Source: Aeromicrobium duanguangcaii (lineage in GTDB: Bacteria > Actinomycetota > Actinomycetes > Propionibacteriales > Nocardioidaceae). Taken from it: a DNA stretch of 64,000 nt. Positions within the stretch are counted from its first letter, which is position 1; each line of letters begins with the position of its first letter. Shown piece after piece: positions 5,950 through 15,855 of the stretch. Below the pieces are notes generated by a model. That model did not search any database, was not told the DNA's origin, and was given only the letters and a program-made list of their open reading frames with translations. The DNA lies in NCBI RefSeq assembly GCF_024508295.1, contig NZ_CP101990.1, positions 1 through 64,000 of the forward strand, given 5' to 3'. The position numbers and the translations under genes were made by a program.

Positions 5950-6750
5950 TCAGCGGTCCTGGGGGGAGATCCAGGACATCAGCCAGACCACGCACGCCGA
6001 TGCCAGGGCCACCGCGCCGAGCACGAGCGACGCCTGCAGGAAGCCCTCGAGTCCCGACACCGGGCGCACGCCGATCAGGACGATCCCGATCAACGCGGCG
6101 ATCGCTCCGCTGAGCGCGGTCAGGAAGACGGCGGAGTCCCGCGAGCGGCGGCCGCCGTGGACGAGGACGCCGACGGCGCACCACGCGAGGGTCACGAGCA
6201 GCGCGGCGACGACATCGGCGGGCCGGTGCCAACCGGCGACGATCGTGGACAGGCCGGTCAGGCCCGTCGCGAAGGTGCCCAGCCCGGCGACGGAGGCCCG
6301 TGCCCGGGACGGCACGACGATCAACAGCGCGGCCACGGCGGCTGCCACGACCGTGACGTGGCCGCTCGGCAGCGAGTTGTGGATGCCGTAACCCAGATCC
6401 GGCCGGTCCAGAACGCCGTGCTTGAGCACCTGCGTTGTCACGTTGGCGCCCACGATGACGGTGACGGCGGCCAGCGCGGCGCGACCGTGCCGGCGCACCG
6501 CGGCCAGCAGCAGACAGCCGACGGCCAGGATCGCGACGGTGCCGATCGAGACGCGACCGAGGATCGACAACAGGGTCAGCCGAGCGTCGCGTCCCGCGGT
6601 CACCGCGAGCATCGAGTCCTCGTCCGCGGCCTGGCCCGTGGTGGACCACAGCGCCACCCGGACGAGGACGAAGAACGCGGCAACGGCGCCGGCGCCGACG
6701 ATCACCGCCGGCCCCGACACCCGCGCGGGTACTCGGGTCGTGGAACTCAC
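5950..6750 (-). CDS. PAP2-family membrane phosphatase
   Basis: The 266-aa integral membrane protein of the type-2 phosphatidic acid phosphatase superfamily probably hydrolyses a lipid phosphate or polyprenyl diphosphate at the outer face of the membrane. The three PAP2 motifs are visible: KHGVLDRP (about residue 123), PSGH (about residue 142) and STIVAGWHRPAD (about residue 185). The Arg of the usual SR-x5-H motif is replaced by Thr here, while the catalytic His and Asp are kept. About six hydrophobic segments are present. It lies alone between convergent replication genes and the sugar transporter. Substrate is unknown. Confidence 0.82.
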   Translation of the reverse strand: MSSTTRVPARVSGPAVIVGAGAVAAFFVLVRVALWSTTGQAADEDSMLAVTAGRDARLTLLSILGRVSIGTVAILAVGCLLLAAVRRHGRAALAAVTVIVGANVTTQVLKHGVLDRPDLGYGIHNSLPSGHVTVVAAAVAALLIVVPSRARASVAGLGTFATGLTGLSTIVAGWHRPADVVAALLVTLAWCAVGVLVHGGRRSRDSAVFLTALSGAIAALIGIVLIGVRPVSGLEGFLQASLVLGAVALASACVVWLMSWISPQDR

Positions 6751-6784
6751 ATCTCCATGCTTTCAGACCAGCCCACGAACGACG

Positions 6785-6821
6785 ACGGCCGCGCGCCGTC
6801 CTGAGACGGTCGCGCGGCCGT
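6785..6821 (-). terminator. Hairpin downstream of the sugar permease
   Basis: ACGGCCGCGC (6785-6794) pairs perfectly with GCGCGGCCGT (6812-6821), and an inner CCGTC/GACGG stem extends it. It lies 20 bases beyond the permease stop, between two minus-strand genes, and fits a terminator of the transporter operon. Confidence 0.55.
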
Positions 6822-6840
6822 GGCCGAGAAGGTCGAACTG

Positions 6841-8091
6841 CTAGGCCCGACCGTGACTCACGCGCGACCGACGCGCGACCGAGTCGAGGATGACCGCCAG
6901 CAGCAGGACGCCGCCGGTCACCATGAACCGCCACGACGAGTCGAGGTTGACCAGCGTCAGGCCGCTGGAGATCGACGAGATCACCAAGATGCCCAGCAGG
7001 GCCGCGAAGGCCGAGCCGCGACCACCGAACAGGCTGGTGCCGCCGATGACCGCCGCCGCGATGGCGTTGAGGTTCACGTCACCGGTGCCGCTGCTCTGCG
7101 CCGCGGCGGCGAGGCGACCGGCGGCCAGGATGCCGCCGAGGGCAGCCAGCATCGAGCACAGCATGAAGACGCTCGTGTAGACGCGGTTCACGTTGACGCC
7201 GGCGCGCCGCGCCGCCTCCTCGTTGCCACCGACGGCGAAGACCGAGCGGCCCCAGCGCGTGCGGGTGAGCGCGTAGTGAAGCGCGAGGACCAGGCCGACG
7301 AACAGGACGAACATCCAGCCGATGCCGCGCGCCTGGTTCATGTACCAGGCGGCCGCCAGCAGCACGACGGCCATCGCGCCGGCCTGCAGGGCCAGGTGCA
7401 GGACCGGGACCGAGGAGAGGCCAGCCTTCGCGCGAGCCCGCGAGCGACCGAAGCGGGCCAGGAAGAAGCCCGCCGCGGCCAGCACGACCAGGACGTACGA
7501 CAGCGTCGCCGGCACGAACCACAGTTGGCCGAGCTTCACGATCGGCGAGTCGAACGGCAGGTTGATCGTGCCGCTGGGGCCGAGCACCTTCAACTGCAGG
7601 CCCAGGAAGCCCAGCAGGCCGGCCAGCGAGATGACGAACGACGGCACGCCGAACCGCGTGTAGACGATCGAGTAGACGAAGCCGATCGCCGCGCCGGCGG
7701 CGAGCGAGCCGAGCACGGCCACCCAGACCGGCCAGTCGTTCTGGACGAACGAGACGCCCAGGATGGCGGCGGACAGACCGCTGACCGAGCCGACCGACAG
7801 GTCGATCTCGCCCACCAGCAGCACGCAGACGATGCCCAGCGCGATGACGCCGACCGCGGCCGACTCCATCAACAGGTTGCCCAGGTTCGCGCTGGACAGG
7901 AACGACGAGTTCAGCGACTGGAACACCGTCCAGATCACGAGCAGGCCGACGATGACGGGCAGGACGCCCAGATCGCCGCCACGGATGCGCTCGCCCACCG
8001 ATCGCACGAGGCCGCCGAACCCTTCACTGGTGCGCAGGCGCTCGTCCTGCAGGTCGGCGGCGACGGGGCTCAGGCCCTCGGGGCTGGTCAT
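6841..8091 (-). CDS. Sugar ABC transporter permease (CUT2, XylH-like)
   Basis: This is the membrane channel of a carbohydrate ABC importer. The 416-aa protein has about ten to twelve hydrophobic segments and the CUT2 permease motif GEIDLSVGSVSGLSAAI (about residue 115). The second conserved block AAVIGGTSLFGGRG is near residue 350. Its length and composition are closest to XylH-type permeases (about 400 aa), longer than RbsC. Its start overlaps the ATPase stop by 4 bases (ATGA), so the two are translationally coupled. The binding protein further upstream looks pentose- or polyol-specific, but the true substrate is unknown. Confidence 0.9.
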   Translation of the reverse strand: MTSPEGLSPVAADLQDERLRTSEGFGGLVRSVGERIRGGDLGVLPVIVGLLVIWTVFQSLNSSFLSSANLGNLLMESAAVGVIALGIVCVLLVGEIDLSVGSVSGLSAAILGVSFVQNDWPVWVAVLGSLAAGAAIGFVYSIVYTRFGVPSFVISLAGLLGFLGLQLKVLGPSGTINLPFDSPIVKLGQLWFVPATLSYVLVVLAAAGFFLARFGRSRARAKAGLSSVPVLHLALQAGAMAVVLLAAAWYMNQARGIGWMFVLFVGLVLALHYALTRTRWGRSVFAVGGNEEAARRAGVNVNRVYTSVFMLCSMLAALGGILAAGRLAAAAQSSGTGDVNLNAIAAAVIGGTSLFGGRGSAFAALLGILVISSISSGLTLVNLDSSWRFMVTGGVLLLAVILDSVARRSRVSHGRA

Positions 8092-8900
8092 CGGATCTCC
8101 TCATCGGTCGAGGCGGAACGGTCGGCACGGCGGGTCACGGCGTTGTCCGTGGCGCCGGTGATGGCCGCGACGAGTTCCTCGGTCGTGACCTGACGGGCGT
8201 CGAAGACGCCGTTGTTGCGACCCAGTCGCAGGACGGCGACGCGGTCGGCGACGGCGCGCACGTCCTCCATGTTGTGGCTGATCATGATCACGGCCAGGCC
8301 GTTCTCACGCAGTCGCTCGACGAGGTTGAGGACCTCCGCGGTCTGGGCGACACCCAGCGCGGCGGTCGGCTCGTCGAGGATGATGAGCTTCGGGTCCAGC
8401 AGCAGCGACCGTGCGATCGCGACGGTCTGGCGCTGGCCGCCGGACAGCGACGCGATCGGGATCCGCACGGACGGGATCTTGGCCGCGAGCTGGCGCAGCA
8501 GCTCCCACGAGCGGACCTCCATCTGCACCTCGTCGAGGCGCAGCGGCGAGATCTCGCTGTTGAGGAAGAGGTTGCTGACGACGTCGAGGTTGTCGCACAG
8601 CGCGAGGTCCTGGAAGACCGTCGCGATGCCGAGGTCGATCGCGTTCTGCGGGCTCGTGATGCTGACCTGACGGCCGTTGAACTCGAGCGTGCCGGACGAG
8701 GCCGTGTGCACGCCGGACAACACCTTCACGAGCGTGGACTTGCCGGCGCCGTTGTCGCCGACCACGGCCACGACCTCACCGGCGTGGACGTCGAGGTCGA
8801 CGTCGGTGAGCGCGGCGACCGCGCCGAAGTTCTTGCTGATCGCCCGCAGGCTCAGGATGGGGCGCCCGGACGCGGGGGTCGCCTCGGTGGCTTGGTTCAT
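8088..8900 (-). CDS. Sugar ABC transporter ATP-binding protein (single-domain CUT2)
   Basis: This ATPase energises sugar import with the neighbouring permease. The 270-aa protein has one complete nucleotide-binding domain: Walker A GDNGAGKST (about residue 53), signature LSGGQRQTVAIARSL, Walker B LIILDEPTAALG and the switch His in MISHN. Most CUT2 ATPases (RbsA, XylG) have two domains in about 500 residues. This one has a single domain, as in FrcA-type systems, so it probably works as a homodimer. GGGAGAGAC precedes the ATG. Confidence 0.9.
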   Translation of the reverse strand: MNQATEATPASGRPILSLRAISKNFGAVAALTDVDLDVHAGEVVAVVGDNGAGKSTLVKVLSGVHTASSGTLEFNGRQVSITSPQNAIDLGIATVFQDLALCDNLDVVSNLFLNSEISPLRLDEVQMEVRSWELLRQLAAKIPSVRIPIASLSGGQRQTVAIARSLLLDPKLIILDEPTAALGVAQTAEVLNLVERLRENGLAVIMISHNMEDVRAVADRVAVLRLGRNNGVFDARQVTTEELVAAITGATDNAVTRRADRSASTDEEIR

Positions 8901-8923
8901 GTCTCTCCCTGTGGATCGACGAC

Positions 8924-8954
8924 GGCCGGTCCCCGCACGCAGCGGGGACCGGCC
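8924..8954 (-). terminator. Intercistronic hairpin behind the binding-protein gene
   Basis: A perfect 13-bp stem, GGCCGGTCCCCGC (8924-8936) and its complement (8942-8954), has a 5-base loop. It sits between the binding-protein stop and the ATPase start. Such hairpins often cause partial termination or protect the upstream mRNA so that more binding protein than transporter is made; that role is inferred. Confidence 0.6.
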
Positions 8955-8962
8955 GAGCGTGA

Positions 8963-10039
8963 TCAGTTGATGCCGAGCTTCTTGCAGCCGGCGGCGTAGG
9001 CGCCGGTGCAGACCTGGTCGGCGGTGTAGATCTTGCTGTCGAAGATGACCTTCTTCACGTTCTCGGCCGTGACGACCTCGGGCGTGAAGAGCTGCGACGG
9101 GGTGTCGAACAGCTCGGTGTCGGCCTTCGGCTCCTCACCCTTCAGGAACGAGACGGCGGCCTCGGCGGCGGCGCTGGCGACGATGCTGATCGGCTTGGAG
9201 ATGGTGTTGTACTGCTCACCGGCGATGATCCGCTGGATCGCGGCGACCTCGGCGTCGTTGCCGGTGACCGGCGGGACCGGGTCGATGCCCGCGGCCTTGA
9301 GCGCCGCGACGGTGCCGCCGCCGGTGCCGTCGTTGGCCGCGACCGCGCCCGCGATGTCATCGCGGTACTTGGTGATCTGGCCCGAGACCCAGTCCTGGGC
9401 CTTCTGCGGGTTCCAGTCCGGCGTGTCGAACTCGGCGAGCATCTCGTACTTGCTGCCCTCGACGCCGGCCTTCATGCCCTTCTTGATGAGCTGCGCGGCG
9501 TCGTCGGTGGGCGACCCGTAGACCATCAGCAGGCCGCCGTCGGCCTGGTCGGCGTCGAGCTTCTTGACGAGCGACTCGGCGATCATCTTGCCGATCCCCT
9601 CGTTGTCGAACGACACGTAGAAGTCGGCCGGCTTGGTCGTGATCGGACGGTCGTAGGTGATGACCGGGATGTCCTGCGCCTGGGCGTTGGCCACGATGGT
9701 GGCGGCGGCCTTGGTGTCGACGGCGTCGAGCACGAGGACGTCGACGCCCTGCGCGATGGCCGAGTTGGCCTGCTGCTGCTGCTTGTTCGGGTCGCCGTCG
9801 CCGTTCTGGTACAGGACCTTGCAGTCCTCGCACAGCTCCTTGACCTTCTTCTCGAACAGCGGGCGGTCCTGCTCCTCGTAGCGCGTGGAGGCGCGGTCGG
9901 GCATGAGGAACGCGATCGTGCCCGAGGCCTTGTCGCCGTCCTTGCCCTCGGAGTCATCGCCCGAGCCGCAGGCGGCCAGGGTTCCCAGGGCCAGGACCGC
10001 GGCGGCAACTGCCGCGATGCGGAAGTTCGTTGTCTTCAT
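8963..10039 (-). CDS. Sugar ABC transporter substrate-binding lipoprotein (XylF-like)
   Basis: The 358-aa lipoprotein captures the sugar outside the membrane. The signal peptide ends in the lipobox LAAC (Cys at about residue 24), followed by a Ser/Gly/Asp-rich linker. The type-1 periplasmic-binding fold follows, with ITYDRPI, the FDNEGIGK block, AANDGTGGG and VTGNDAE. These match the ligand contacts of the XylF branch of CUT2 binding proteins. It is the first gene of the minus-strand transport operon. A perfect TGTGA-N6-TCACA site lies about 55 bases before its start. Confidence 0.9.
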   Translation of the reverse strand: MKTTNFRIAAVAAAVLALGTLAACGSGDDSEGKDGDKASGTIAFLMPDRASTRYEEQDRPLFEKKVKELCEDCKVLYQNGDGDPNKQQQQANSAIAQGVDVLVLDAVDTKAAATIVANAQAQDIPVITYDRPITTKPADFYVSFDNEGIGKMIAESLVKKLDADQADGGLLMVYGSPTDDAAQLIKKGMKAGVEGSKYEMLAEFDTPDWNPQKAQDWVSGQITKYRDDIAGAVAANDGTGGGTVAALKAAGIDPVPPVTGNDAEVAAIQRIIAGEQYNTISKPISIVASAAAEAAVSFLKGEEPKADTELFDTPSQLFTPEVVTAENVKKVIFDSKIYTADQVCTGAYAAGCKKLGIN

Positions 10040-10094
10040 GTGTCTCTCTCTTCTGAACCGGGCGTCGGGCCGAAGCCGTGCCTATACCATCGCT

Positions 10095-10110
10095 TGTGAC
10101 AGCTGTCACA
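10095..10110. promoter_or_regulatory. CRP/GlxR-type binding site
   Basis: The 16-base sequence TGTGACAGCTGTCACA is a perfect palindrome and an exact match to the TGTGA-N6-TCACA consensus of cAMP-responsive CRP/GlxR regulators. It lies between the transporter operon and the divergent regulator gene, so it could control both. It suggests catabolite control. The binding protein itself is not in the window. Confidence 0.65.
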
Positions 10111-10134
10111 CGCTGAATGCGGGGACCGTAACAT

Positions 10135-10146
10135 TTAACACGTTAA
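10135..10146. promoter_or_regulatory. Inverted repeat TTAAC-N2-GTTAA, candidate operator
   Basis: TTAAC (10135-10139) and GTTAA (10142-10146) form a small inverted repeat in an A+T-rich patch of the divergent promoter region, flanked by a further GTAACA. It could be an operator of the adjacent DeoR-type regulator. Spacing and sequence do not prove this. Confidence 0.35.
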
Positions 10147-10203
10147 CTCTGTCAAGTGGGTTGTTACCCCACCATGTCGCGTGTCGAACCGAGGAGGACA
10201 CCC

Positions 10204-10992
10204 ATGCCCGATCAGGCTCCAGGCCGGCCATCGCGTGCCCAACGCCAGCGGCGGATCATCGATCGCGTCGTCGAGCAGGGCTTCGCCAGCGTCGCGGAAC
10301 TGGTCGAGGACGCGGGCGTCAGCGTCATGACGATCCACCGCGACCTCGACGACCTGGCGGGACGCGGACTGCTCCGGCGCGTGCACGGCGGCGTGTCGGC
10401 GCTGCCCACCGGCGTTTTCGAGTCCAGCTCGGAGTTCCGGATGCAGCGCCAGGTCGAGGCCAAGGACGCGCTGGCGCGCACGGCGCTGGGCTTCGTGGAG
10501 CCGGGCATGTCGGTGCTGCTCGACGACTCGACCACCGCACTGGCCCTGGCGCGACTTCTTCCCTCCGTCGGTGCGCTCACGGTGATCACCAACTACCGGC
10601 AGGTGCTGGAGGTCTTGATGGACCAGGACGAGGTCTCGGTGATCATGCTCGGTGGCGCGTACTCGCGCACCCACGACTCGTTCATCGGCGCGCCCGATGC
10701 GTCAGGCCTGGCCACCTACGCCGTCGACGTCTCGTTCCAGTCGACCTCGACGATCGACGACGTCCGCGCCTACCACCAGGAGCAGGAGCTGGTGCTGATG
10801 AAGCGCGCGATGATCGAGGCCGGCGAGCGCAGCGTCCTGATGATCGACGGCTCGAAGGTGGGCCGGCGCTCGCTGCACCGGTTCGCGGAGCTCTCGGAGT
10901 TCTCCGATCTCGTGGTCACACCGGACGTTCCCGCACCGATGCGCGAGACGATGGCAGAGCACGTGCGTCTGCACGTCACAGACGGCATGTGA
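10204..10992 (+). CDS. DeoR/GlpR-family transcriptional regulator
   Basis: The 262-aa regulator has an N-terminal DeoR-type helix-turn-helix (RAQRQRRIIDRV, VEDAGVSVMTIHRDL, then GLLRRVHGG; residues 12-70). A C-terminal DeoR sensor domain of the kind that binds phosphorylated sugars follows (LDDSTTALALARLL, ITNYRQVLEVL, MIDGSKVGRRSL). The ATG at 10204 is preferred because GAGGAGG lies just upstream; an earlier in-frame start would add 16 residues. It is divergent from the transporter and leads the catabolic genes, so it probably controls both. An intermediate of the pathway is the likely effector (inference). Confidence 0.88.
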   Translation: MPDQAPGRPSRAQRQRRIIDRVVEQGFASVAELVEDAGVSVMTIHRDLDDLAGRGLLRRVHGGVSALPTGVFESSSEFRMQRQVEAKDALARTALGFVEPGMSVLLDDSTTALALARLLPSVGALTVITNYRQVLEVLMDQDEVSVIMLGGAYSRTHDSFIGAPDASGLATYAVDVSFQSTSTIDDVRAYHQEQELVLMKRAMIEAGERSVLMIDGSKVGRRSLHRFAELSEFSDLVVTPDVPAPMRETMAEHVRLHVTDGM

Positions 10993-11037
10993 CATCGTCA
11001 CAGTCCCGGTGATATAGATAACAACAATCTTGTTATC
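10988..11037. promoter_or_regulatory. Two palindromes ahead of the dehydrogenase-kinase operon
   Basis: TGTGACATCGTCACA (10988-11002) overlaps the regulator stop codon and resembles a CRP/GlxR site with a 5-base instead of a 6-base spacer. The second palindrome is GATAACAA-N5-TTGTTATC (11017-11037), perfect over 8+8 bases and A+T-rich. It looks like an operator rather than a terminator because it is not G+C-rich and has no T tract. It lies about 43 bases before the next start codon. Confidence 0.55.
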
Positions 11038-11080
11038 TCCGGCGGGGTGTGCCGCTCCGCCCTCGGAAAAGGTGAACCCA

Positions 11081-12112
11081 TTGACCACGATCCTCTCGGC
11101 GGGCGACCGCTTCGTCCGCCCGGAACTGTTCTCCGACGCCATCCGAGCCGCAGTCGGTGAGGGGGTCCCGCTGGAGTTCCGGACGACGACCTCGCAGTGG
11201 CCGCACGAGCCGTTCGGCCCGGTCGAGAACGTGGACGAGGCCTCCGGCACGGTCGAGGGCATGATCGAGGCGCTCCGGGGTGTCGAGATCGCCGTCACGC
11301 AGCTCGCTCCGTTCTCGCGCTCGATCATCGAGGCGTCACCGGACCTCAAGCTCATCGGCGTCAGCCGCGGCGGGCCGGTGAACGTCGACCTCGAGGCCGC
11401 CACGCGCGCCGGCGTCGTCGTGGTCAACGCGCCCGGACGCAACGCCCAGGCCGCCGCCGAGTTCACGATCGGCCTGATCCTGGCCGCCAGCCGCCGCATC
11501 CCCGCCGCGCACGGCGAGCTCGCCCGCGGCACGTGGCGCGGCGACTACTACTCGTGGGAGGAGGCCGGCGGCGAGCTCGACGGCGAGACGGTCGGCCTGA
11601 TCGGCCTCGGCGCGATCAGCACGATCGTCGCGCGCATCCTGCGGGCCTTCGGCGCCACCGTCATCGCGTACGACCCCTACGCCGCTCCCACCGAGGGCGT
11701 CGAGCTGGTCGAGCTGGACGACCTCATCGCACGCAGCGGGATCGTCAGCCTGCACGCGCGCCTGACCGACGAGACCCGGCACATCCTGGACGAGACGCGC
11801 CTGCGTGCGATGCGTCCCGGCGCCGTGCTCATCAACACCGCGCGCGGCGGCCTGCTCGACTACGCCCCGCTGCCCGAGCTGCTCGAGTCCGGTCACCTGC
11901 GCGCTCTCGGTCTGGACGTCTACGACATCGAGCCGCCGCCGGCCGACTGGCCGCTGCTGTCGGCGCCCAACGTCGTGCTGTCGCCGCACCTCGCGGGCGC
12001 GACCCGCCAGACGGCCGAGCGCGCCGCGTCGATCATCGCCGGCGAGGTCGCCACGTACCTGACCGGCGGCGAGCTGCGGTACGTGTGCAACCCCGAGGTG
12101 CTGCGGGGATGA
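11081..12112 (+). CDS. D-isomer-specific 2-hydroxyacid dehydrogenase
   Basis: This is an NAD(H)-dependent oxidoreductase of the SerA/PdxB/HPR superfamily. The 343-aa protein has SRGGPVNVD and NAPGRNA (substrate-side motifs) and a Rossmann block GLIGLGAISTIVA, in which the third Gly of GxGxxG is Ser. Asp follows strand 2 (AYDPY), favouring NAD. The catalytic Arg is in NTARGG, the Glu in DVYDIEP and the His in SPHLAGAT. AAGGTG lies 9 bases before the TTG at 11081; an in-frame GTG at 11072 is possible. It overlaps the next kinase gene by 4 bases. The substrate, probably an aldonate-type or keto-sugar acid, is unknown. Confidence 0.88.
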   Translation: MTTILSAGDRFVRPELFSDAIRAAVGEGVPLEFRTTTSQWPHEPFGPVENVDEASGTVEGMIEALRGVEIAVTQLAPFSRSIIEASPDLKLIGVSRGGPVNVDLEAATRAGVVVVNAPGRNAQAAAEFTIGLILAASRRIPAAHGELARGTWRGDYYSWEEAGGELDGETVGLIGLGAISTIVARILRAFGATVIAYDPYAAPTEGVELVELDDLIARSGIVSLHARLTDETRHILDETRLRAMRPGAVLINTARGGLLDYAPLPELLESGHLRALGLDVYDIEPPPADWPLLSAPNVVLSPHLAGATRQTAERAASIIAGEVATYLTGGELRYVCNPEVLRG

Positions 12113-13557
12113 TCCTCGGCGTCGACATCGGCACGTCGGTCACGAAGGCCGCGCTGATCGGTCGTGACGGTCGCAGCGTGCGGTCCGCGAGCCGTCCGTC
12201 CGAGCTGCTGCGCGGCCCCGGCGGCGTGGTCGAGCAGGACCTCGACGACGTCGTGGCCTCGGTGGTCACCGTCGTGCGCGCCGTCATGGACGGCACCGAC
12301 GAGCCGATCGATGCCATCGCGCTGACCGGCCAGGGCGACGGCCTGTGGCTGCGCGACGAGCAGGGCCGCCCCACCCGACGCGCGATCTCCTGGATGGACG
12401 GCCGGGCGGCCGACCGCGTCGCCCGGTGGCGCGCGGACGGCGTGCTCGACCGGGTCCACGCCCTCACCGGATCCGGCGTCTTCCCGGGGTCGCACGCCGC
12501 GCTGCTCGCCCACCTGGCCGAGCACGAGCCGGAGGTCCTGGAGCGCTCGGCGGTCGCCGGGTACTGCATCGACGCCGTCCTGCAGCGACTGACCGGCGTG
12601 ATCACGGTCGACGCGTCGGATGCGTCGCTGCCCTTCCTCGACGTGCGGACCCGGGGGTACGTCGACGAGGCCCTGGCCGCGTGCGGTGTCGCGGACTGGC
12701 GGCGCCTGCTGGCGGATCCGGCCGAACCGCACGCCGTGTTCGCGCTCGACGCCACCGGCGCCGGGCTGCTCGGCCTGCCCGAGGGTCTGCCGGTCACGGC
12801 CGGCCCCTACGACGTGATGACCTGCGGCATCGGCGCCGGCGCCCGGCGCGCGGGCCAGGGCACCGTCGTCGTGGGCACGACCCTGTCCTGCCAGGCGCTG
12901 ACCACCGACGCCACGATCGATCCGGCGACCGAGCCGGCCGGCATGTGGCTGTGCACGCCCGACCCCGACCTGTACCTGCGCACGATGCCCTCGATGGCCG
13001 GCACCGCCGCGATCGCGCACGCGCTCTCCCTCGTGGGGGCCGGAACCGCCGACCTGCAGGGATTCCTGGAGGAGTCGGCCCCGGGGGCCTCGGGGGTCCG
13101 TGCCCTGCCGTTCGTGTCCGGTGCGGGCGAGCGCGCACCGTTCGTCGAGCCGCGGGCCACCGGCCAGCTCCTCGGCATGACGCTCGCGAACGGACCGGCC
13201 GACGTGGTCCGGGCGATGTGCGAGTCGGTCGCCTACGCCGCCCGGCACTGCCTCGAGGCCGCCGGCCTGTCCGGCGAGCTCTCGGGATGCGGCGGCGGAC
13301 TGGGCACCGCCGCCTTCGCGCAGCTGATCGCCGACGCCACCGGCCAGGCCCTGCACGTTCCGCACGAGCCGTTCGTCGGCGCACGCGGAGCGGCAGCGGT
13401 CGCCTGGGCGGCGCTCGGCGCCCCCGTCGACGAGGACGCCTGGGCGGCCGACCGCCAGGTGATCGCCCCGCAGTACGACCTGCGCGACCAGTACGAAGCC
13501 GGATACGCCCGCTACCTGGCGGACGTCCGCGAAGCACGACAGAGGTGGACCGCATGA
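12109..13557 (+). CDS. FGGY-family carbohydrate kinase 1
   Basis: The 482-aa sugar or polyol kinase has both ATPase-fold halves of the FGGY family. The phosphate-1 motif GVDIGTSVTKAAL is at the N-terminus. A substrate-loop segment TGQGDGLWLRDEQGRP with SWMDGRA lies near residue 75. The second-half adenosine motif SGCGGGLGTAAFAQLIAD is near residue 385. The TGQGDG-W segment is reminiscent of erythritol- and L-xylulose-type kinases; this is a weak clue. Its start overlaps the dehydrogenase stop (ATGA) and its end overlaps the second kinase. The phosphoryl acceptor cannot be named from sequence. Confidence 0.87.
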   Translation: MILGVDIGTSVTKAALIGRDGRSVRSASRPSELLRGPGGVVEQDLDDVVASVVTVVRAVMDGTDEPIDAIALTGQGDGLWLRDEQGRPTRRAISWMDGRAADRVARWRADGVLDRVHALTGSGVFPGSHAALLAHLAEHEPEVLERSAVAGYCIDAVLQRLTGVITVDASDASLPFLDVRTRGYVDEALAACGVADWRRLLADPAEPHAVFALDATGAGLLGLPEGLPVTAGPYDVMTCGIGAGARRAGQGTVVVGTTLSCQALTTDATIDPATEPAGMWLCTPDPDLYLRTMPSMAGTAAIAHALSLVGAGTADLQGFLEESAPGASGVRALPFVSGAGERAPFVEPRATGQLLGMTLANGPADVVRAMCESVAYAARHCLEAAGLSGELSGCGGGLGTAAFAQLIADATGQALHVPHEPFVGARGAAAVAWAALGAPVDEDAWAADRQVIAPQYDLRDQYEAGYARYLADVREARQRWTA

Positions 13558-15056
13558 GCAGTTCCGGTGGCGCGAGCCCCGTCAGCATCGGCGTGGACCT
13601 GGGGACGCAGAGCGTCAAGGTCCTCGCCGTCGATCTCGACGGCCGGGTCCTGGCCGAGGCGGCGCGACCGCTGACCAGCACCCGCGACGGGGTCCGCCAC
13701 GAGCAGGACCCGCAGGAGTGGCTGGCCGCGACGGTCGCCGCGACCGCCGACGCGGTGGGCCGGCTCGACGCCGCCCAGCGGGCCGCCATCGCCGCGGTGT
13801 CCCTGTGCGGCACCTCCGGCACCGTGATCGAGGTCGATGCCGCGGGCCGCCCCGTCGGGCCGGCGATCATGTACGACGACGCCCGCGCCGCGGCCGAGGC
13901 GGCCGAGGTGGCCGCCGCCGACCCCGCCCGCTGGGACCGGCTCGGCTACCGCATCCAGCCCAGCTGGGGCGTCACGACGATCGTCCACGCGGCGCGCCAG
14001 GGGCTGCCCGCGGGACACCGCTTCGCCCACCAGCCGGACGTCGTGGCCGCGGCCATGTGCGGCGGCCCGGTCGCGACCGACTGGAGCAGCGCGCTCAAGA
14101 GCGGCTATGACCTGCTCGAGCTGGCCTGGCCCACCGACGTCCTCTCCGGGCTGGGCGTCGACCCGGGCACCCTCCCCGAGGTCGTGGCGCCCGGTGCGCC
14201 GCTGGGCGCTGTCGGGGCGGACTGGGCCGAGCGCACCGGCATCGCGGCGGGCACGCCCGTCGTGGGCGGCATGACCGACGGCTGTGCCTCGCAGCTGGGC
14301 GCCGGTGCGATCGGTGAGGGCGACTGGCACTGCGTCATCGGCACGACCCTCGTGCTCAAGGGTGTGACCGCGACGCCGCTGAAGGACGACGGTGGCGCGG
14401 TCTACTCGCACCGCTCGCCCGTCCCGGGCCGGTGGCTGCCCGGTGGCGCGTCGAGCGTCGGCGCGGGTGCGCTGGCCGCGCTCCTGCCCGGTGCCGACCT
14501 GGCCGGCCTCACGGCGCAGGCGCAGCAGCTCTGGGACAAGGGCGCGGCCGTCGTGCCGGCCTACCCGCTGACGGGCACCGGCGAGCGGTTCCCGTTCGTG
14601 CGCCCCGACGCCCAGGGCTTCGCGCTGGTCGACGGCGTCGAGCGCGAGCTCTCCGTCCTCGGCTACGGAGCCGACGCGTACCTCTCGGTGATCGTCGGCG
14701 TGGCCGCGCTCGAGCGGACGTGCCTGGACGTGCTGGCCTCCGCCGGCGGATCGGTCGACGGCCGGTACAGCACCTCGGGCGGTGGCACCCGCAGCGACCT
14801 GTGGAACCAGGTGCGCGCCGATCTGCTCGAGCGTCCGGTCACGATCCCCCGCTCGGCCGAGCCGGCGGTGGGCGCGGCGATCCTGGCGGCGTCGTCGATC
14901 GTCGGCGCCGAGACCGAGTCCGACTGGACCGCGCTGGTCCGCCGGATGTCCGGAGTCGCGGCGGTCGTCGAGCCGCGACCGGAGTCGTCCGAGCGACTGC
15001 TGCAGGTGCACGGCCGACTGGCCGACGCCTGGCGTGCCCGAGGATGGCTGGCATGA
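13554..15056 (+). CDS. FGGY-family carbohydrate kinase 2 (ribulokinase-like)
   Basis: The 500-aa FGGY kinase is clearly different from its upstream neighbour. It has the motif GVDLGTQSVKVLAVD at about residue 12, SLCGTSGTVIEVD with ALMYDD-like IMYDDARA near residue 100, and the canonical adenosine-binding block SGGGTRSDLWNQVRADLLE near residue 407. The SGTV..MYDD region resembles the D-ribulokinase/plant-type XK-1 branch more than classic xylulokinase. It is coupled to kinase 1 by an ATGA overlap and to the phosphatase gene by another. Two non-identical kinases in one operon suggest a substrate phosphorylated twice, or two parallel substrates (inference). Confidence 0.86.
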   Translation: MSSSGGASPVSIGVDLGTQSVKVLAVDLDGRVLAEAARPLTSTRDGVRHEQDPQEWLAATVAATADAVGRLDAAQRAAIAAVSLCGTSGTVIEVDAAGRPVGPAIMYDDARAAAEAAEVAAADPARWDRLGYRIQPSWGVTTIVHAARQGLPAGHRFAHQPDVVAAAMCGGPVATDWSSALKSGYDLLELAWPTDVLSGLGVDPGTLPEVVAPGAPLGAVGADWAERTGIAAGTPVVGGMTDGCASQLGAGAIGEGDWHCVIGTTLVLKGVTATPLKDDGGAVYSHRSPVPGRWLPGGASSVGAGALAALLPGADLAGLTAQAQQLWDKGAAVVPAYPLTGTGERFPFVRPDAQGFALVDGVERELSVLGYGADAYLSVIVGVAALERTCLDVLASAGGSVDGRYSTSGGGTRSDLWNQVRADLLERPVTIPRSAEPAVGAAILAASSIVGAETESDWTALVRRMSGVAAVVEPRPESSERLLQVHGRLADAWRARGWLA

Positions 15057-15661
15057 CCTCGGTGATCCACCTGGCGCGGCACGGCGAGACGGTGTGGCAC
15101 GCGGAGAACCGGTACGCCGGCTCCTCCGACGTCGGCCTCACCGAGCGCGGGATGGAACAGGCCCGCGCGCTGGGCGCCTGGGCCGCCGCCCACGGACCCC
15201 TCACCGTGCACAGCTCGGACCTGAGCCGCGCCGTCGTGACGGCGACCCCCGCGGCCGAGGCGCTGGGGCTGGAGCTTCACGTGCGCCCCGCGTTGCGCGA
15301 GGTCGACTTCGGACAGGGCGAGGGCCTGACCCGGACCGAGATGGCCGAGCGGTTCCCCGACGACCTCGCCCGCTTCCTGGAGCGTCCCGCCGAGTCGCCG
15401 TTGCCCGGTGGCGAGGCCGGCCGGGCAGCCGTCGAGCGCGCGCTGCCCGAGCTGCGCTCCTTGGCATCGCAGTCCGAGACGCCCGCGCTGGTCGTCATGC
15501 ACTCGACGCTGCTGCGCCTCGTGCTGTGCACGCTGGTGGGCATCGATCCGAACCGGTATCGCACGGTCATGCCGCGGGTGCGCAACGTCGCGGTGACGAC
15601 CCTCGAGCTCGCCGACGACGGTCGATCCGCTGCCCTGCTGGGGTTCAACGTCCCGGTCTGA
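15053..15661 (+). CDS. Histidine phosphatase family protein (phosphoglycerate mutase-like)
   Basis: The 202-aa branch-1 histidine phosphatase has the catalytic LARHGET at residue 5, then RYAGSSDVGLTERG, the second arginine motif SSDLSRAVVTA, LREVDFGQGEGL and the second catalytic His in MHSTLLRLVL. It probably removes a phosphate from a small sugar phosphate rather than acting as a glycolytic mutase, since it closes the sugar operon. The ATG at 15053 overlaps the kinase stop and has AGGA about 9 bases upstream; an ATG at 15044 is too close to any ribosome-binding site. GCCCGG-TG-CCGGGC follows the stop. Confidence 0.86.
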   Translation: MTSVIHLARHGETVWHAENRYAGSSDVGLTERGMEQARALGAWAAAHGPLTVHSSDLSRAVVTATPAAEALGLELHVRPALREVDFGQGEGLTRTEMAERFPDDLARFLERPAESPLPGGEAGRAAVERALPELRSLASQSETPALVVMHSTLLRLVLCTLVGIDPNRYRTVMPRVRNVAVTTLELADDGRSAALLGFNVPV

Positions 15662-15780
15662 GCCCGGTGCCGGGCACCAGCGGTCCACGAGGCCGGCTCG
15701 GAGGGCCCCAGATGATGGGTGCCTTGGTCGGCCCCCTGGTCGTGACTCCCAGAGGCGATTATGAGCCGTTCAGCGGCATC

Positions 15781-15855
15781 TGTGGATGAATATCGAAGCC
15801 TCCCCAGGAGGTGTCGTGTCGTGGGACGAACAGAATGGCCCCGTATACTGGATGG
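15781..15855 (+). promoter_or_regulatory. gyrB upstream region: DnaA-box-like site and leaderless promoter candidate
   Basis: TGTGGATGA at 15781-15789 is identical to two of the boxes in oriC. TATACT at 15844-15849 is a near-consensus -10 element whose predicted start point falls on the GTG start of gyrB at 15856, so the mRNA may be leaderless. No clear -35 element is present. Confidence 0.4.

Follow-up and report, generated by a model that had tools for sequence, protein, structure and literature searches.

A conserved actinobacterial operon with two FGGY kinases, a 2-hydroxyacid dehydrogenase and a histidine phosphatase is a candidate for pentitol utilization

Gene content and organization of the island

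The DNA analyzed here, hereafter the window, represents positions 1-64,000 of contig NZ_CP101990.1 of Aeromicrobium duanguangcaii (assembly GCF_024508295.1), the genome of which consists of this one contig of 3,133,793 bases. The window harbours an island encoding eight proteins, i.e., the components of a CUT2-type sugar transporter, a DeoR-family regulator, a 2-hydroxyacid dehydrogenase (HADH), two FGGY kinases (K1 and K2) and a histidine phosphatase (HP). The island is a real, conserved and coherent operon, for which polyols are the most likely substrates, and it is of a kind known genetically in rhizobia. Its genes and candidate regulatory sites are as follows.

6841-8091, minus strand: CUT2 (XylH/GguB-like) sugar permease, 416 aa (PF02653, 112.4 bits; GguB model, 219.2 bits against an equivalog cut-off of 450)
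8088-8900, minus strand: CUT2 ATPase with a single ABC domain, 270 aa (PF00005)
8963-10039, minus strand: XylF/ChvE-like substrate-binding lipoprotein (PF13407; XylF model, 188.4 bits against a cut-off of 389.55)
10095-10110, no strand: perfect palindrome TGTGACAGCTGTCACA (TGTGA-N6-TCACA, CRP/GlxR-like) between the divergent genes, found by sequence reading and pattern search
10129-10145, no strand: operator-like site TAACATTTAACACGTTA in the region between the binding-protein and DeoR genes, with one mismatch to TAACA-N7-TGTTA, found by pattern search
10204-10992, plus strand: DeoR-family regulator, 262 aa (Pfam)
11019-11035, no strand: candidate operator TAACAACAATCTTGTTA, an exact TAACA-N7-TGTTA located 46 bases before HADH, found by pattern search
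11081-12112, plus strand: HADH of an RbtA-like subfamily, with a TTG start (Pfam and alignment)
12109-13557, plus strand: K1, an FGGY kinase near EryA (erythritol/pentitol kinase; Pfam and tree)
13554-15056, plus strand: K2, an FGGY kinase of the clade of SePSK, which has D-ribulose kinase activity, and the rhizobial rbt FGGY kinase (tree and identity)
15053-15661, plus strand: HP, a branch 1 histidine phosphatase (PF00300, 171 bits)

The sequence-only reading of this region had described four plus-strand genes linked by ATGA overlaps, following a DeoR gene, facing a CUT2 transporter with a XylF-like binding protein and accompanied by no isomerase, aldolase or epimerase. The analysis agrees on each of these points: HADH/K1, K1/K2 and K2/HP share four-base ATGA overlaps, the transporter genes (6841-10039, minus strand) diverge from DeoR-HADH-K1-K2-HP, and a Pfam scan of the cluster proteins detected no isomerase, aldolase, epimerase or decarboxylase inside the cluster. 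The DeoR and HADH genes do not overlap, being separated by an 88-base gap that holds the operator palindrome; an upstream TTG start of HADH at position 11030 was discarded because it falls within this operator. The domains of all eight proteins were confirmed by Pfam, and none of the proteins reached an NCBIfam equivalog cut-off. The CUT2 ATPase aligns to the N-terminal half alone of XylG-type models, those of Escherichia coli spanning two ABC domains.

The lack of equivalog matches and of standard pathway genes in the cluster upholds the view that this is a sugar or polyol island distinct from the standard pentose pathways. For example, the D-xylose pathway was ruled out, as the cluster contains no xylose isomerase and K1 and K2 scored 188.8 and 177.5 bits with the XylB model, below its cut-off of 380.25; the island thus resembles xylFGH-xylAB systems in its type of transporter but differs in lacking XylA and in its kinases. 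The AI-2 lsr system was ruled out on similar grounds, the LsrK model giving just 63.8 and 56.8 bits with the two kinases against a cut-off of 528, with no LsrF or LsrG in the cluster. The known tetronate (otn) route was also dismissed, since the cluster is devoid of an isomerase, a class II decarboxylase and a DUF1537 kinase (the latter sought in the cluster only), and since PF00596 was not found genome-wide.

Co-occurrence of cluster genes among actinobacteria

A scan of genome contigs with an HADH alignment returned 216 relatives, the best 80 loci of which were retained, all being actinobacterial. At tblastn thresholds of at least 45% coverage, at least 30% identity and E 1e-6, HADH was present in all 80 loci, K1 in 79 and DeoR in 78. 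Co-occurrence was counted across the 67 loci with a length of 17.5 kb or more, with the 13 shorter loci omitted; these loci are kin, and the counts consequently do not represent independent events. The gene-neighbourhood search across actinobacteria, which had been proposed as a check, identified HADH-K1-DeoR as a core that is constant in the long loci (67/67) and spans at least four actinobacterial families, an association that exceeds chance, with K2 and HP varying together around it.

K2 was detected in 35 and HP in 36 of the long loci: both genes occur in 35, HP alone in one, K2 alone in none, and neither in 31. In S. spinosa, the main locus shows no K2, and a K2 is located elsewhere. A second module consists of a HAD phosphatase (52/67), a fused dihydroxyacetone kinase (DAK; 51/67) and RpiB (52/67). 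HAD and DAK are both present in 51 loci, with HAD alone in one, DAK alone in none and neither in 15, and the figures for DAK and RpiB are identical (both 51, RpiB alone one, DAK alone none, neither 15). A phosphatase and a second kinase are found together in 66 of the 67 loci.

A class II aldolase gene is present in 28 of these loci, and HADH is the sole oxidoreductase among the gene groups that occur in at least 30 loci. A major facilitator superfamily (MFS) transporter is encoded in 56 loci and the CUT2 binding protein in six, with five loci having neither and none having both. A view of the CUT2 genes as neighbours with no link to the cluster was discarded on the basis of this recurrence of the binding protein, never alongside MFS, and is also contradicted by the operator-like sites upstream of the binding-protein gene.

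The added gene groups were each identified from one scanned member. The MFS protein belongs to the RbtT/DalT/CsbX family (535.7 bits, cut-off 375) and DAK surpasses its family cut-off (658.2 versus 492), while RpiB scores above the actinobacterial ribose-5-phosphate isomerase model (171.4 versus 168.2) and below that for D-erythrulose-4-phosphate isomerase (164 versus 240). For the HAD protein, all equivalog scores fall short of their cut-offs. The model closest to the class II aldolase is that for ribulose-1-phosphate aldolase, although the score is below the cut-off (210.6 versus 300), as it is for fuculose-phosphate aldolase (203.3 versus 264).

A conserved candidate operator

The motif TAACA-N7-TGTTA, recognized from the palindrome upstream of HADH, was observed 26 times as an exact match, and 108 times when up to one mismatch was permitted, in the 80 loci and the window, in all cases outside called genes; block shuffles of the same DNA contained no exact match and one to two with up to one mismatch. 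Variation of the spacing gave 26 exact matches at a spacing of 7 and none or one at any other, the one-mismatch runner-up being a spacing of 14 with 57 matches. Random letter permutations of the motif (300) gave a maximum of 45 and a median of one, and the runner-up among 20 palindromic permutations, which included the observed motif, reached 10; AT-rich motifs favour intergenic DNA here, for which the permutations allow, although they do not allow for the kinship of the loci.

The site is located upstream of a cluster gene in 56 of the 81 loci, i.e., in 30 of 36 with DAK but no K2, in 12 of 21 with both and in nine of 19 with K2 but no DAK, the rest being the window and four loci in which neither kinase was found. 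Sites precede HADH, DeoR and transporter genes, the latter in the window, in L068, L074, L005, L061 and L012 and in others, and the transporter therefore seems to be part of the regulon. Furthermore, the TGTGA-N6-TCACA palindrome before the binding-protein gene is also perfect in Mumia (L011, position 7977), with one further match elsewhere, and may possibly confer catabolite control on the transporter.

Relationships of the kinases

The two kinases were placed in a tree of 50 rows, including 13 K2 and 17 K1 rows, from which the canonical RbtK is absent. This phylogeny had been recommended by the sequence-only reading. SePSK, AtXK-1 and three rhizobial FGGY kinases form a clade with the 13 K2 rows (100/97, starred), to which AraB, on a long branch, is the nearest E. 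coli row. All 17 rows of K1 are found near EryA of Sinorhizobium meliloti, Shinella and Marinovum, together with kinases of Paracoccus, Sagittula and one more from Shinella, at moderate support (92/85, not starred). As long branches lead to the E. coli references, the tree is taken to reflect kinship of the kinases and not their substrates. Of five substrates reported for SePSK, D-ribulose stimulates this enzyme most, and AtXK-1 is described as weakly stimulated (PMC4880283); RbtK is derived from the AraB branch in the scheme of an FGGY family survey (PMC3245297).

The additional Shinella kinase of the K1 group is 49% identical to K1 and encoded on a plasmid (L092, 3277-20474). Its cluster also specifies a GlpD-type dehydrogenase, an aldolase of the class II fructose-bisphosphate type, lipoyl synthase and a thiamine-dependent dehydrogenase complex; another FGGY kinase, adjoining a HAD hydrolase, is encoded nearby.

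The HADH subfamily

HADH, its actinobacterial kin and four alphaproteobacterial proteins constitute one group (94/97), separate from SerA, PdxB, GhrB and LdhA of E. coli, all of which are on very long branches. The signatures RGGPVN and P[GA]RN are common to the group members printed in the alignment, and the catalytic Arg, Glu and His residues are retained. The two arginines of these signatures, situated next to the substrate loop, could bind a phosphate group. No NCBIfam equivalog covers the subfamily at cut-off, the best match of HADH being the phosphoglycerate dehydrogenase model at a score below its cut-off. A 2018 classification of 2-hydroxyacid dehydrogenases includes 13 named subfamilies that lack biochemical data (PMC6303947).

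In the four annotated alphaproteobacterial loci, an FGGY kinase gene is adjacent to or two genes away from that for HADH, which is followed by a class II aldolase gene in all four. On Paracoccus and Sagittula plasmids (L087, 6220-17047; L088, 6154-16716), the same HADH subfamily is accompanied by a fuculose-phosphate-type aldolase and an FGGY kinase, as well as by CoA transferases, an acetolactate-synthase-like protein and a molybdopterin oxidoreductase.

Comparison with characterized polyol loci

The island proteins exhibit 42% (DeoR, 228 positions), 46% (HADH, 340 positions), 31% (K1) and 33% (K2, 432 positions) identity to their counterparts in S. meliloti, where the DeoR counterpart may be read as EryR. 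The gene order in S. meliloti CP090106 is FGGY kinase, HADH, class II aldolase (222 aa), glycerol-3-phosphate dehydrogenase, class II aldolase-domain protein (351 aa), FGGY kinase, an unannotated stretch with HAD-like frames, sugar phosphate isomerase, DeoR, triose-phosphate isomerase and RpiB. In this record the HAD phosphatase gene (L086, 14488-15450) is unannotated and apparently interrupted.

Such loci carry eryA, rbtA, fucA1, eryB, lalA-rbtB-rbtC, eryC and eryR-tpiB-rpiB (Geddes et al. 2013, PMC3599248). According to the same paper, EryA and the Mpt transporter also serve adonitol and L-arabitol, lalA-rbtABC serve adonitol and L-arabitol but not erythritol, and fucA is dispensable (PMC3599248). 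By elimination on gene order, in place of a locus tag, HADH would correspond to RbtA, and lalA, rbtB and rbtC to the aldolase-domain protein, the FGGY kinase and the HAD protein, respectively. On Shinella and Phyllobacterium plasmids, too, the gene for a K2-like FGGY kinase precedes that for a TIGR01459 HAD hydrolase.

The island and the S. meliloti ery/rbt locus are alike in a kinase, putatively of the EryA type in the island, beside the same HADH subfamily (as RbtA), in a K2-like kinase, which in S. meliloti is that of lalA-rbtB-rbtC and is followed by HAD-phosphatase-like frames, and in the DeoR regulator. They differ in that EryB, EryC, FucA1 and the LalA-like class II aldolase-domain protein are not encoded in the cluster, that HP takes the place of the HAD phosphatase, and that a CUT2 system is found instead of the Mpt transporter. 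The initial suggestion of a pathway that is undescribed, or at least not assignable by eye, holds in part: no published description of the actinobacterial cluster was found in the open-access library searched, yet the kinase clades, the kinship with the S. meliloti locus and the MFS gene that most long relatives have where six have the CUT2 binding protein permit a partial assignment. Similarly, with regard to whether the kinases and gene order would match one known pathway and a published operon, the cluster is kin to one known locus, but its gene order and phosphatase match no published operon that was found.

In Klebsiella-type rbt/dal operons, a dedicated dehydrogenase oxidizes the free polyol, one kinase is enough, and neither K1 nor a phosphatase is known to be involved. 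These operons share with our proposal the conversion of a pentitol to a ketulose followed by a ketose kinase, and one relative of the island has an RbtT/DalT/CsbX transporter; however, their arrangement of a free-polyol dehydrogenase beside a single ketose kinase is not present in the cluster, which encodes only a 2-hydroxyacid dehydrogenase and two kinases. The threitol/erythritol pathways of Mycobacterium smegmatis employ erythrulose kinases of the dihydroxyacetone-kinase type, and K1 and HADH are not known to be part of that scheme. The DAK and RpiB genes of the long loci, in Pseudonocardiaceae, Streptomyces and others, resemble this scheme, whereas the island cluster is devoid of both.

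Genomic context and distribution

The class II aldolase domain (PF00596) was not found in the whole 3.13-Mb genome by a search that was positive in 12 of 14 control genomes. The genome encodes one RpiB (at 692 kb), one Dak1 and three FGGY kinases, i.e., K1, K2 and a glycerol kinase (730 bits, cut-off 590.35). The closest named relatives of K1, K2 and HADH are Aeromicrobium proteins, and K2 is present in two of 49 genomes of the genus (A. duanguangcaii and G079) and in four of 57 Cryobacterium genomes. One of the Cryobacterium genomes (G054, contig 31) contains two K2 genes approximately 35 kb apart. Of the four Cryobacterium carriers, two match C. adonitolivorans and strain Y82 by an identical protein and another is 97% identical to strain TMT1-2-2; the genome of C. 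serini is not represented in the 57, its best match there being 80%.

The island (region 6750-15835) is located between PAP2 and gyrB, near dnaN-recF. Among the 20 loci of the genus in which the dciA region was compared, the permease gene comes after PAP2 in A. duanguangcaii and G079. In 16 of the 18 remaining loci, gyrB is no more than about 1.5 kb from dciA, with PAP2 between these two genes in 15, and these 16 thus leave no space for the island at this position; in the remaining two PAP2 is visible and gyrB is outside the stretch covered. Because its presence is rare and patchy, the island was probably gained laterally.

The cluster is present in Cryobacterium adonitolivorans (L068), and C. 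serini has K2. The phenotypic data given for 19 described Cryobacterium species list acid from D-adonitol for C. adonitolivorans alone, acid from D-arabitol for C. adonitolivorans, C. serini and C. tagatosivorans, and acid from L-arabitol for C. lactosi (PMC10067761). The match between phenotype and cluster is suggestive only.

Proposed pathway

We consider, at a probability of roughly 0.5, that the island is a self-contained pentitol operon, with ribitol and/or D-arabitol as the likeliest substrates, and that K1, HADH, HP and K2 constitute a route to D-ribulose 5-phosphate. Favouring this view are the placement of K2 with SePSK and, at moderate support, of K1 near EryA, the counterparts of four island proteins in one S. 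meliloti pentitol locus, the pairing of a phosphatase with a second kinase, HADH as the sole oxidoreductase among the frequent gene groups, the family of the scanned MFS protein, the proximity of the scanned aldolase to the ribulose-1-phosphate aldolase model, the operator sites and the Cryobacterium phenotypes. The genes, their relationships, the pairing rule, the shared operator and the negative genome search for a class II aldolase domain are observations; the substrate, the order of the steps, the positions of phosphorylation, repression by DeoR and the action of HADH on a polyol phosphate are inferred. The CUT2 system would import the polyol, K1 would phosphorylate it at the terminal carbon (C1), and HADH would oxidize the neighbouring carbon (C2) to yield a ketose 1-phosphate. 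Oxidation of ribitol or D-arabitol at C2 yields D-ribulose, and the product would thus be D-ribulose 1-phosphate, which is not an intermediate of the pentose phosphate pathway. It could leave by cleavage with a ribulose-1-phosphate aldolase, which relatives may use, or by removal of the phosphate by HP and phosphorylation of the free ketose at C5 by K2, the resulting D-ribulose 5-phosphate then entering the pentose phosphate pathway. As the genome search returned no class II aldolase domain, the HP/K2 exit would be the one that the cluster offers, and class II aldolase cleavage of a ketose phosphate, as may occur in relatives, was discarded for this organism. DeoR, responding to an intermediate, would repress transcription through TAACA-N7-TGTTA, and in relatives the parallel HAD, DAK and RpiB module would perform the same task for a tetrulose.

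More tentatively, the HADH subfamily defined by RGGPVN...P[GA]RN in actinobacteria and alphaproteobacteria may oxidize polyol phosphates and not hydroxy acids, within a pathway of phosphorylation, oxidation, dephosphorylation and rephosphorylation in which each second kinase has its own phosphatase (K2 with HP for pentuloses, DAK with HAD and RpiB for tetruloses).

Several observations weigh against this pentitol route, its weak points being the chemistry of HADH and the aldose-like binding protein. The 2-hydroxyacid dehydrogenases covered as studied enzymes in the 2018 classification use 2-hydroxy or 2-keto acids, formate or phosphite (PMC6303947), so that a polyol phosphate would be an unprecedented substrate for oxidation by the family, and the equation of HADH with RbtA is itself made by elimination. 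With regard to K1, its affinity to EryA is of moderate support and 31% identity, the fork uniting its rows is weak (81/36), and the distribution given in the FGGY survey has EryA and D-ribulokinase (RbtK) in Alphaproteobacteria only (PMC3245297). The operator precedes cluster genes in just 56 of 81 loci, including nine of 19 with K2 but no DAK. The species evidence consists of two named carriers spotted after the fact, and D-arabitol is listed as a carbon source in eight of the 19 Cryobacterium species (PMC10067761), a trait that therefore fails to single out carriers.

The binding protein is also the point of departure for the best-placed, albeit improbable, alternative, in which an aldopentose, or another aldopyranose, enters through CUT2 and is turned into a ketose or polyol by an enzyme encoded elsewhere, with K2 acting as the main kinase and K1 and HADH handling a side product. 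The closest solved relative of the lipoprotein is E. coli XylF, whose YDR, FDNE, ND, D and K motifs recur in the island protein and in 11 aligned loci (a twelfth, L033, having been removed by a length filter), which suggests an aldopyranose ligand. However, the cluster has no isomerase, and in relatives the CUT2 binding protein is replaced by MFS transporters (56 versus six of the 67 long loci), one of which was assigned by scanning to a pentitol transporter family.

A sugar-acid pathway, which we regard as still less probable, would have HADH oxidize a tetronate or pentonate, or a phosphate thereof made by K1 (compare PdxB and 4-phosphoerythronate), with the other genes processing the keto acid. 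No new HADH chemistry would be called for, in keeping with the intact catalytic Arg, Glu and His residues and the best, sub-threshold score to the phosphoglycerate dehydrogenase model; yet K1 and K2 lie near polyol and ketose kinases, the transporters are XylF-like or RbtT/DalT-like, the cluster is without a decarboxylase or aldolase, and the related S. meliloti locus serves polyols.

HP could, moreover, be a repair enzyme, since such phosphatases can be housekeeping enzymes, e.g., AraL; K1 and K2 would then catabolize a pentitol or ketose while HP, or HAD in relatives, merely clears dead-end sugar phosphates that arise from kinase promiscuity, an unlikely arrangement to which one locus with HP but no K2 and one with HAD but no DAK lend themselves, but against which K2 is always accompanied by HP (35 long loci) and DAK by HAD (51), such strict phosphatase-kinase pairing in two different modules fitting an on-pathway step better than repair.

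Implications

The phosphatase-kinase pairing and the operator make the predicted pentitol route directly testable. If correct, the route would provide a function for an HADH subfamily that lacks an NCBIfam equivalog at cut-off, and would account for the presence of a second kinase gene and then a phosphatase gene in the genetically known adonitol/L-arabitol locus. Furthermore, it would imply that soil actinobacteria use pentitols and tetritols in a modular manner.

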